Source: Rhodoflexus caldus
GTDB taxonomy: Bacteria; Bacteroidota; Bacteroidia; Cytophagales; Thermoflexibacteraceae
Length of the DNA: 64,000 nt
Direction of reading: 5' to 3'
NCBI RefSeq assembly: GCF_021206925.1
Contig: NZ_JAJPRF010000001.1
Span: forward strand, 248,001 to 312,000
Below are positions 28,349-31,200 of the stretch, piece after piece (the stretch's first letter is position 1; every line of letters starts with the position of its first letter). Below the pieces are notes generated by a model that searched no databases, was not told the DNA's origin, and worked only from the letters and a program-made list of their open reading frames with translations. Both the position numbers and the translations under genes were made by a program.

Positions 28349-29899
28349 TTACAATTCAATGAATTGGTCTTGCTGGTTCTTGAAATGAAATTCAGTAACC
28401 CCCAAGGAAGAATCTTTTTCAATCCTTACCCATCTTCTGTATTTAAAAAACCAGTTCAACCGAATGGAAGGCCACCCCGCCGTAAAATAGGCGTACAGAT
28501 AAGGATGGACAATCAGAGCGATTTTACTTTCATTTTGTCGGGTCAGGATATAGTCGAGTTTGCTTTCAATTTGGTCGGCAACCGATATAGAAGCGTTGAT
28601 TTTGCCTGTTCCGTTGCAAGTCGGGCATTTTTCTACGGTAGAAATATTGAGTTCAGGCCGTACACGCTGTCTGGTAATTTGCATCAGACCAAATTTGGTA
28701 AGCGGTAACACGGTAAATTTCGCACGGTCAGACTTCATTTCGGCTTTAATGTGCTCATAGAGCATTCGCTTATGTTCGGCAGATTTCATGTCAATAAAAT
28801 CGATGACAATGATGCCGCCCATATCGCGGAGCCTGAGTTGGCGGGCTATTTCGGTAGCAGCTTCCATGTTTACGGCAAAGGCCGTGTTTTCCTGCGTACT
28901 TTCCGAATTAGATTTATTGCCGCTGTTTACGTCTATTACGTGAAGTGCTTCTGTGTGCTCAATTACGATGTATCCGCCGCTGGGAAGGCTTACAGTCGGA
29001 CCGAAAAGTAACTTGACTTGTTTTTCGATTCCGAAGGCCTCAAAAATTTTGGCTTTGCCGGTATATAGCTTTACGATTTTTTCTTTTTCCGGAGCAATAT
29101 TCCGAATGAAACCTTTAATGTCTTCAAACATTTCGCGGTCATCAACCGTGATGCTGTCGAAAGTTTCGTTGAGCATGTCGCGCAGCATAGAGTTAGCACG
29201 CCCTACTTCGCCAATAATTTTTTCACGCGGTTTGGCGGTCTGCAATTTTTCCATGCCTTTTTGCCAGTTGCTCAGCAGTTCATTAAGGTCTTTATCCAGT
29301 TCGGTAATGTCTTTGCCTTCGGCGACCGTTCGGATGATGATTCCGAAATTTTCCGGCTTAATAGAAGAAAGCAGCTTAATCAGCCGCTTTCTTTCTGTAT
29401 TGTCTGTTACTTTTTTAGAAACATTGACCGTATTGGAAAATGGCACAAGTACAATATGCCTGCCCGCCAGCGAAAGCTCGCAGGAAAGGCGTGGCCCTTT
29501 GGTCGAGATGGGTTCTTTAACCACCTGTACCAGAATTTGCTGGTTTACTTTCAGCACATCGCTGATTTTACCCAGTTTATCTAATGGCGGCTCCATTTTG
29601 AACCCTGAGAGCAGGGCATTATCGTACTTGCTGTTTTGCACCATTTTGGTGAACTTCTGCATAGAGCGGAAGTTCGGCCCTAAGTCTAAATAGTGCAGAA
29701 ATGCATCTTTTTCGTATCCTATGTCAATGAACGCTGCGTTCAGCCCGGGTACGATGCGCCGAACGATTCCTAAAAAAATATCGCCTACAACAAAATTTTC
29801 ACTACTGTCTTCGTAATGAAACTCTACCAAACTTTTATCTCGTAGAAGCGCTATCCGGCCGCCATTTTGAGTTGAGTTGATAACTAATTCGTTACTCAT
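28349..29899 (-). CDS. rng: Ribonuclease G/E family endoribonuclease
   Basis: A 516-residue RNase of the short RNase G type, cutting single-stranded A/U-rich RNA for rRNA maturation and mRNA turnover. It starts with the inserted S1-like domain (FVVGDIFLGIVRRIVPGLNAAFIDIG), then the catalytic DNase I-like region with HVIDVNSGN (Asp) and IVIDFIDM (second Asp), and the zinc-link CPTCNGTGKI. There is no long C-terminal scaffold, unlike RNase E. It is the last gene of the leftward operon HU, TPR, mS38-like, rng, ending at a strong terminator. Confidence 0.93.
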   Translation of the reverse strand: MSNELVINSTQNGGRIALLRDKSLVEFHYEDSSENFVVGDIFLGIVRRIVPGLNAAFIDIGYEKDAFLHYLDLGPNFRSMQKFTKMVQNSKYDNALLSGFKMEPPLDKLGKISDVLKVNQQILVQVVKEPISTKGPRLSCELSLAGRHIVLVPFSNTVNVSKKVTDNTERKRLIKLLSSIKPENFGIIIRTVAEGKDITELDKDLNELLSNWQKGMEKLQTAKPREKIIGEVGRANSMLRDMLNETFDSITVDDREMFEDIKGFIRNIAPEKEKIVKLYTGKAKIFEAFGIEKQVKLLFGPTVSLPSGGYIVIEHTEALHVIDVNSGNKSNSESTQENTAFAVNMEAATEIARQLRLRDMGGIIVIDFIDMKSAEHKRMLYEHIKAEMKSDRAKFTVLPLTKFGLMQITRQRVRPELNISTVEKCPTCNGTGKINASISVADQIESKLDYILTRQNESKIALIVHPYLYAYFTAGWPSIRLNWFFKYRRWVRIEKDSSLGVTEFHFKNQQDQFIEL

Positions 29900-29927
29900 G
29901 AGTGGCGCGGAATAGAGTTACAGGCTG

Positions 29928-30017
29928 TTACTTCTTCTTATGTCTGTTTTTTCTGAGGCGCTTTTTGCGTTTGTGCGTAGCGATTTTGTGTCTTTTTCTT
30001 TTTTTTCCGCAAGGCAT
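29928..30017 (-). CDS. 29-residue mS38/AURKAIP1-COX24-like small ribosomal protein
   Basis: A tiny basic protein, MPCGKKRKRHKIATHKRKKRLR then KNRHKKK, on the minus strand, 28 bases before rng and 31 bases after the TPR gene stop. Lys, Arg and His make up about 20 of 29 residues. The pattern KKRKRHKxATHKRKKRLRKNRHK is that of the AURKAIP1/COX24 (mS38) domain, seen in the mitochondrial small ribosomal subunit and in very small Bacteroidota proteins. It should bind rRNA. The start ATG (30015-30017) and stop TAA are clear. It falls below usual gene-calling length and may be missing from annotations. Confidence 0.85.
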   Translation of the reverse strand: MPCGKKRKRHKIATHKRKKRLRKNRHKKK

Positions 30018-30048
30018 AGTCTTACACGGTTAAAGGTGAAACAATCAT

Positions 30049-30879
30049 TTATTTTAATTTCTGCAAGTAGTCATCGACAGCGGCCTGAATGGCAGGGTCT
30101 TGGTCAGCTTTTTTTACTGCATCGAACCATTTAATGGCCTCCTGCTTTCTTCCGGCTTCTGCCAGCGACATTGCCAGATAAAACTGCGCTTTGGTGTCCT
30201 GAGGGTTGAGCCCCAGTAACTGTTCAAATCGGGCAATGGCCTTGTCGTATTGCCCCGATTGCATGGAAAGTACCCCTAAATTAAACAATGCAAATTGATT
30301 TTGGGGGTCTTCTTCCAATACTTCTCTAATCAGGGCTATCCCCTGCATAGGCGCATCGGAGACGATGTAGGTCATACCCATTTTTGTTTTGGCATCTAAC
30401 CGCGAAGGGTCGGCTGCCAACACTTGTTTGTAGTAGCTGCGTGCCTTTTCGCCCAACTGTTTCCCTTTTTCGGGACTAATGGCAAATCCGAAGGCTTCGT
30501 AGTAAGCATCGGCAGCGCGCATTTGCAAACTAACTGATGGATAGCGGTCGGCAAGGATGCCGCTGTAATAGGCAATGCTATCCAACTGATTAACGCCTCG
30601 GTAGAGTGCCGCCATTGAGTCCAGCACCACCGTCAGGCGATTTTTATCGGTTCCGCTGCGAAATTCGGCCTGCAAAGCTCTGAGCTGCTGCTGCTGAACA
30701 TCGCTTAACGGCAGATTATGCATACGCACCACGTTTGAGTCGGGTGCTGCCTGCCGGTCGGCTGCGGGAGCGGTTTTCATGTCTTTGATATCGGTTTCCA
30801 CGATAGATTTAGGAAGAACCGATAAACCGACAACGGCTGCCAAGGCTACACCTGCGACAATTAACTGATGCTTATGCAT
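30049..30879 (-). CDS. TPR-repeat membrane-anchored protein
   Basis: A 276-residue protein with an N-terminal hydrophobic segment (residues 5-23) and a periplasmic or cytoplasmic TPR region. Repeats are seen at AALYRGVNQLDSIAYYSGIL, the helix pair KARSYYKQVLAADPSRLDAKTKMG, REVLEEDPQNQFALFNLGVLSMQSGQYDKAIARFEQLLGLNPQD and LAMSLAEAGRKQEAIKWFDAVKK. There is no lipobox. It starts 12 bases after the HU stop, and homologues in this position are often seen in Bacteroidota. It is a scaffold of unknown partner. Confidence 0.85.
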   Translation of the reverse strand: MHKHQLIVAGVALAAVVGLSVLPKSIVETDIKDMKTAPAADRQAAPDSNVVRMHNLPLSDVQQQQLRALQAEFRSGTDKNRLTVVLDSMAALYRGVNQLDSIAYYSGILADRYPSVSLQMRAADAYYEAFGFAISPEKGKQLGEKARSYYKQVLAADPSRLDAKTKMGMTYIVSDAPMQGIALIREVLEEDPQNQFALFNLGVLSMQSGQYDKAIARFEQLLGLNPQDTKAQFYLAMSLAEAGRKQEAIKWFDAVKKADQDPAIQAAVDDYLQKLK

Positions 30880-30891
30880 AACCTTAGTTAC

Positions 30892-31200
30892 TTATTGAGC
30901 ATTGTGTGCCAAACGCACCTTTTCGCTGTTTTTAATTTTATCTACAAAGGTTTTGGCCGGCTTGAAGCTCGGAATATAGTGCTCACCGATTTCAATAGGA
31001 GTGTTTTTAGAGATATTGCGACCAATTTTCTTGGCTCGCTTCTTATTGATGAAAGAGCCAAAACCTCTGATGTAGATGTTGTGCCCTTCGGCCATGCTCT
31101 GGCGAATTACGTTAAGGAAGGCTTCAACTGTGGCGGTTACGTCGCCTCTATCTATCCCTGTCTTTTCCGCAACTTCTGCGATTACGTCTGCTTTTGTCAC
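30892..31200 (-). CDS. HU-family DNA-binding protein
   Basis: A 102-residue bacterial histone-like protein. It begins MTKADVIAEVAEKTGIDRGDVTATVEAFL, has the turn IYIRGFGSFINKKRAKKIGRN (beta arm start) and ends in IPSFKPAKTFVDKIK plus a short tail, normal for HU/IHF. It bends DNA and compacts the nucleoid. It is the first gene of the operon with the TPR protein, the mS38-like protein and rng, behind the promoter at 31265-31296. Confidence 0.92.
   Translation of the reverse strand: MTKADVIAEVAEKTGIDRGDVTATVEAFLNVIRQSMAEGHNIYIRGFGSFINKKRAKKIGRNISKNTPIEIGEHYIPSFKPAKTFVDKIKNSEKVRLAHNAQ

Follow-up and report, generated by a model that had tools for sequence, protein, structure and literature searches.

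A stretch of 64,000 nucleotides (nt) of the Rhodoflexus caldus genome (contig NZ_JAJPRF010000001.1, positions 248,001 to 312,000; hereafter the window) carries four closely spaced genes on its minus strand. They encode, in order, an HU/IHF-family DNA-binding protein (called HU below for brevity), a tetratricopeptide repeat (TPR) protein, a peptide of only 29 residues and a ribonuclease (RNase) of the RNase E/G family, referred to below as RNase G. An initial annotation had placed these four genes here, and all four reading frames were confirmed. What is new in the present analysis is comparative: an old core of HU and the ribosomal protein bS22, which is the 29-residue peptide, an RNase G gene linked to this core only in the window's own class, and, in relatives, a boxA motif before RNase G. 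The features of the locus, in window coordinates, are as follows.

31295-31265, minus strand: putative Bacteroidota-type promoter (TTG at 31295-31293, 20-nt spacer, TAAATTTG at 31272-31265)
31200-30892, minus strand: HU/IHF-family DNA-binding protein, GTG start, 102 residues (PF00216, E = 6e-26)
30879-30049, minus strand: TPR protein with a predicted N-terminal hydrophobic anchor, 276 residues (TPR_19, E = 5e-20; hydropathy)
30017-29928, minus strand: bS22, small-subunit ribosomal protein, 29 residues (PDB matches 7jil, 9i5v and 8fmw; codon-position test)
29927-29900, minus strand: bS22–RNase G gap, 28 nt (the place of a hairpin and boxA in relatives, neither being present here)
29899-28349, minus strand: RNase E/G family ribonuclease, RNase G type, 516 residues (PF10150, E = 4e-101; TIGR00757 above cut-off)
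28335-28309, minus strand: intrinsic-terminator-like stem-loop with a U run (12-bp stem with 7 G-C pairs)

The intergenic spaces are 12, 31 and 28 nt, in order. For the promoter assignment we used the Bacteroidota consensus in the form TTG-N17-21-TAnnTTTG, which occurs once within the 200 nt upstream of HU, as TTG-N20-TAAATTTG; the promoter with a consensus -7 box proposed in the initial annotation is thereby borne out. A terminator scan returned five sites against a shuffled mean of 5.1, a count not above chance, and we base the terminator call on stem strength and position instead: the stem at 28335-28309 is the longest of the scan and lies directly 3' of the last stop codon, that of RNase G. 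An RNA-family search of the window gave only a sub-threshold ylbH match on the opposite strand. Together, HU, TPR protein, bS22 and RNase G are likely to form one transcription unit, which looks like a plain polycistron ending at the terminator behind RNase G.

PF00216 spans the entire HU/IHF protein, which is the sole PF00216 protein in the R. caldus genome (a single match). As neither the HU nor the IHF equivalog cut-off of NCBIfam was reached, the protein may be either HU or IHF. The RNase_E_G catalytic domain covers most of the ribonuclease, which passes the broader Rne/Rng subfamily model only; its score against the RNase G equivalog NF008689 was 340.7 bits, below the cut-off of 594.

The 29-codon gene encodes bS22

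Searched against the sequences in the PDB, the 29-residue peptide matched Flavobacterium johnsoniae bS22 (7jil, E = 9e-10), a 9i5v chain named AURKAIP1/COX24 domain-containing protein (E = 1e-9) and bS22 of Borrelia (8fmw, E = 2e-7). A profile built from 37 bS22 sequences recovered those same three chains only, up to E = 10. The matches to F. johnsoniae and Borrelia burgdorferi bS22 are full length, over 29 and 28 residues, respectively, with an identical pattern of invariant positions and no protein difference of substance from the window bS22.

Conservation across Bacteroidota, to which the initial annotation had tied its tiny gene, is nearly complete, with bS22 found in 288 of 296 genomes and 139 of 140 genera. 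At codon positions 1, 2 and 3, pairs of sequences from 138 genera differ on average by 0.172, 0.067 and 0.55, and 13 of the 29 residues are invariant. Judged by this pattern, bS22 is under strong purifying selection. A frame so short, of biased composition and without a match among Pfam and NCBIfam models, could in principle be a spurious low-complexity open reading frame; with a ribosomal protein solved in relatives, near-universal occurrence and a protein-like codon-position pattern, this explanation retains almost no probability, and we rejected it. By these sequence criteria, the 29-codon gene is real and encodes the already known ribosomal protein bS22.

The initial annotation had called the peptide mS38-like. 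The ribosomal assignment holds, and the likeness to mS38 and eL41 comes from published structures, not from sequence. In Borrelia, Flavobacterium and Mycobacterium, bS22 is described as occupying a common pocket of 16S helices h2, h27, h44 and h45 and is deemed analogous to mS38 and eL41 (PMC10618245, available text), with which the available text of PMC10085706 is in accord; neither of these texts discusses the surroundings of the bS22 gene. According to these structures, mS38/AURKAIP1 and eL41 share the subunit pocket with bS22, but mS38 is far longer. No mS38, eL41 or mycobacterial chain in the PDB matched bS22 in single or profile searches up to E = 10, a negative to be read with the difficulty that short basic peptides pose for such searches. 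By analogy, bS22 of R. caldus presumably sits in the 16S pocket of the small subunit.

In the remaining 8 of 296 genomes, bS22 was not found even at E up to 10. Six of them, from two genera (G147, G195 and G199; G227, G274 and G286), have HU genes, and no bS22 was seen next to the best HU match, so bS22 can be lost while HU stays. In one of these genera, a frame resembling the zinc-ribbon TPR protein lies behind HU (loci L320-L326, from G274, G199, G147, G286, G227 and G195). To guess from their proteins, the lineages concerned may be halophiles, in which a very basic peptide would possibly be a burden.

HU and bS22 are old neighbours, joined by RNase G in one class

We compared neighbourhoods in 138 other bS22-bearing genera, taking one genome per genus with ~5 kb of flanking sequence either side of bS22 (shorter where a contig ended) and counting neighbours by profiles for HU, TPR protein and RNase G. 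Among the 41 genera of the window's own class, RNase G lies directly downstream of bS22 in all 41, HU upstream in 40 and the TPR gene nearby in 26. Among the 97 genera of other classes, RNase G adjoins bS22 in none, HU in 68 and TPR in 53; 28 lack all three neighbours, a few of these with short flanks. HU is thus upstream of bS22 in 108 of 138 genera overall. Although 293 of 296 genomes encode RNase E/G, the gene is never beside bS22 in those 97 genera, and so must lie elsewhere outside the class; on these counts, we rejected an old partnership of RNase G with bS22.

A pattern scan of named genomes gave at least 80 loci from 119 listed stretches. Among the matches listed, HU lies upstream of bS22 in 3 of 3 Neomarinimicrobiota loci, in the one locus each from Zixiibacteriota, Cloacimonadota and WOR-3, and in one Ignavibacteria and one Chlorobiota locus. 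It is missing there from the 2 Omnitrophota, 1 PVC and 3 Spirochaetes loci whose flanks were long enough (the flank of a fourth Spirochaetes locus was too short). The 64 other listed loci, all Bacteroidota-labelled bar one metagenome-assembled genome (MAG), comprise 54 with HU, 2 without and 8 short of flank. The exceptional MAG locus (L248, CALPIT020000020.1) is titled Streptomyces griseus, carries a Bacteroidota-type bS22, TPR protein and RNase G, and is probably a mislabelled bin.

On these counts across classes and phyla, HU and bS22 appear to be an ancient pair, the TPR gene a frequent third member and RNase G a class-specific addition, probably made in the ancestor of the class. In the TPR protein, a hydrophobic stretch is present in 74 of 76 relatives. 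HU/IHF-family genes also stand beside ribosomal or translation genes in E. coli, where ihfB lies behind rpsA and ihfA in the infC-rplT-pheT region; these arrangements differ from HU-bS22 in the ribosomal genes involved and in their order. In our searches of the open literature, an HU-bS22 gene partnership did not come up, and no publication listed there has a boxA before an RNase gene as the subject of its title or opening abstract lines.

Two loci, L229 (Bacteroides sp. cpbc052018) and L225, have bS22-RNase G without an upstream HU, although their sequence extends more than 3.5 kb upstream. In 34 of the 138 genus loci (for example, L061:2479-3564), HU is preceded by a divergent MutY-type gene (HhH-GPD plus NUDIX_4); in the window, a GNAT-like frame (31804-31310) occupies that position.

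Expression signals along the class operons

Of 39 class loci, 10 have the two-box promoter motif upstream of HU, whereas shuffled sequences gave a mean of 0.64 and a maximum of 3. None of the 41 gaps preceding bS22 and none of the 39 preceding RNase G contains it, so separate promoters for either gene are not supported. Start codons are ATG in 41 of 41 bS22 genes, 32 of 39 HU genes and 11 of 39 RNase G genes; the HU and RNase G starts follow a script rule, and single RNase G loci may be off. Adenines at -11 to -14 accompany high translation in F. johnsoniae (PMC6847099, available text), and the mean A frequency at these positions in the class is 0.80 for bS22, 0.67 for HU and 0.62 for RNase G. 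The window bS22 leader itself is not A-rich there. The class pattern of starts and adenines would fit a high output of bS22 and a lower output of RNase G from one message.

The gap between bS22 and RNase G is folded in relatives

The bS22–RNase G gap has a median length of 164 nt (39 class loci) and is strongly folded, with a mean z of -3.65 in 39 of 41 class gaps, the other two having lengths outside 60-450 nt. A terminator-like hairpin at the end of bS22, defined as a perfect 8-bp stem followed by a T run, was seen in 39 of 92 loci, where shuffling gives 0.15 on average, and in 21 of 26 Flavobacteria-like loci. Its 5' arm often consists of the last lysine codons of bS22 and the stop codon. 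Covariation was read from 15 loci picked for a stop-overlapping hairpin and hence biased towards it, the unselected count being the 39 of 92: in these rows, 98.8% of cells pair, compared with 52-74% in slid registers, and four pairs have changed on both sides, such as a stop codon change from TAG to TAA matched by CTA to TTA.

By contrast with these relatives, the gap measures 28 nt in the window and 22-28 nt in three congeners, and hairpin and boxA are absent from all of them. In the 13 of 41 class loci that were searched, no known RNA family reached its gathering threshold within the gap. In an alignment of Flavobacteriaceae gaps, which took 18 of 29 listed loci, a conserved, unpaired-looking TTGTTTAATC and two more hairpins are found in the stretch from boxA to the RNase G start. 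A Flavo-1 RNA (RF01705) lies shortly behind the RNase G gene of one locus, on the other strand (L155:2999-3094 (+)).

An rRNA-type boxA precedes RNase G in Flavobacteriaceae

A boxA-like motif, GTTC[AT]TTGA, occurs 25-76 nt behind the bS22 stop codon in 11 of the 41 class genera, against a shuffled mean of 0.11. These are all 11 Flavobacteriaceae-type genera sampled (our group f8, assigned by likeness to that family's named contigs), and in most of them the hairpin precedes boxA. Within the loci of these 11 genera, the motif has 11 copies in the 2,250 nt of gap sequence and a single one in the remaining 219,658 nt, both strands counted. It is the best-conserved block of an otherwise poorly conserved Flavobacteriaceae gap (mean column identity 36%). 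Among the named loci in the matches listed, 12 of 53 have the motif in the gap, an unselected figure from which 9 of 62 loci with an unclear RNase G start were dropped; a group of 15 Flavobacteria-like named loci was assembled after the motif had been seen, and two of its contigs are labelled only Bacteroidetes. Variants of the form ACGTTCATT[TA]A occur in two genera of the window's order (L064 and L065), in Cognataquiflexum and in Indibacter, and GTTCTTTAACAT and GTTCTTTGAAAT occur in the gaps of two genomes of the window's own family (L382 and L386).

The same kind of motif marks ribosomal RNA (rRNA) transcripts. In the class, 16S leaders contain motifs of the type GTTC[AT]TT[AG]A, or near variants of it, at a distance of ~80-180 nt from the start of the 16S gene. 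For genomes of the window's order, RF00177 gave no 16S gene among ten candidates scored per genome; the genes were then sought with a DNA query, and some were found. In 16 Flavobacteriaceae genomes, CGTTCWTTGAMAT gave 30 matches: 10 in the bS22–RNase G gap, in as many genomes; 6 in the 16S-23S spacer behind tRNA-Ala, as three copies in each of two genomes (G198 and G057); and 14 scattered, mostly inside open reading frames, against 14 for a reversed-pattern control. This distribution leaves the rRNA spacer and the bS22–RNase G gap as the only recurrent sites. In Flavobacteriaceae, the sense-strand motif in the gap upstream of RNase G thus equals the boxA of the organisms' own rRNA. Its core is identical to that of rRNA boxA, the NusB-S10 site of 16S leaders and 16S-23S spacers; it differs in preceding a protein gene, and the bases after the core differ (ATAGAAAT or similar versus ATATTG). 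Three further strict boxA-like matches are intergenic (L435 in G118, L426 in G285 and L429 in G198) and may mark other boxA-controlled genes; one precedes an ssb-like frame and one a 279-residue frame.

A motif common to the gap and pre-rRNA, within a strongly folded leader, could also mean that the gap mimics pre-rRNA as an RNase G substrate, so that the message is cut by its own product. Beyond boxA, however, no likeness between gap and rRNA leader was seen by eye, and we regard such autoregulation as improbable.

A precedent is the boxA of the enterobacterial suhB message, which likewise precedes a protein-coding gene with a link to rRNA synthesis and was described, in the available text of PMC5725501, from a search limited to gamma-proteobacteria. 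The gap boxA, a prediction from sequence, differs in lying in another phylum, before another gene, within an operon and behind a terminator-like hairpin. On the suhB model, a Nus complex at boxA would restrain RNase G translation and Rho would end the transcript, until rRNA transcripts draw the Nus factors away. The untranslated position of boxA and the RNase G start codons, which are weak and in many loci other than ATG (28 of 39, by the script rule), suit such a mechanism, but in most loci boxA and the RNase G start are over 80 nt apart, a wider spacing than in suhB. We consider it possible, at odds of roughly one to two.

Alternatively, the locus may be merely an old, highly expressed housekeeping cluster in which a strong promoter serves both HU and bS22, RNase G landed once and the boxA-like motif is an inherited relic without coordinating function. 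That the window and many class families keep the gene order without boxA or hairpin, and that RNase G is unlinked outside the class, would be expected of such a cluster. A relic should not, however, be the best-conserved gap block and match the organisms' own rRNA boxA, nor would matched changes in the hairpin be expected; this explanation is unlikely, though it deserves weight.

A growth-linked operon with boxA-adjusted RNase G in relatives

We favour, with a probability of about 0.62, an account in which the locus is a growth-linked polycistron, RNase G was added to it within the class, and RNase G is adjusted by boxA in relatives. In the window, a single housekeeping promoter would drive HU, TPR protein, bS22 and RNase G. 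In relatives, many transcripts would end behind bS22 at the hairpin, and RNase G would be made from read-through RNA. NusB-S10 at boxA would then adjust RNase G expression, such that RNase G supply tracks rRNA transcription. It would act on the read-through RNA, either by sustaining transcription of the long untranslated leader or by suhB-like restraint of translation. In the window and its genus, boxA control would be absent and RNase G simply the last gene. The more specific proposal, that in Flavobacteriaceae and some relatives from the window's order a terminator over the bS22 stop together with boxA and Nus factors couples rRNA transcription to RNase G, and that the window's genus lost this control, is tentative, and we place it slightly below even odds. 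RNase G of E. coli acts in 16S 5'-end maturation. Its link to 16S rRNA processing is also described in the available text of PMC3985665, and by analogy the window RNase may act in maturation of the 16S 5' end.

Several observations weigh against this account. The window itself has neither hairpin nor boxA. The exact core motif is missing from the gap in 30 of 41 class genera, most class families outside Flavobacteriaceae having no clear boxA there, and from all 20 RNase E/G leaders examined outside the class, on which ground a general occurrence of boxA in such leaders was rejected. Being placed downstream of the hairpin, boxA could not rescue the terminator in question. Moreover, by the genome searches above, two lineages keep HU and have lost bS22.

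The initial annotation had suggested coordinated control of ribosome assembly and rRNA processing. The conserved linkage favours this idea, and the rRNA-type boxA that separates bS22 from RNase G in relatives argues for a coordination with the synthesis of rRNA. As the window gap lacks both signals, and RNase G linkage is confined to the class, the suggestion is best supported by the relatives rather than by the window.

The linkage of HU and bS22 aids the finding of bS22 genes that are missed by standard Pfam and NCBIfam models. If the proposed control is true, Nus-factor control of messages would extend to a phylum with unusual promoters and little use of Shine-Dalgarno sequences. If boxA works as outlined for the relatives, it would provide a simple rule by which a bacterial family matches an RNA-processing enzyme to its rRNA output.

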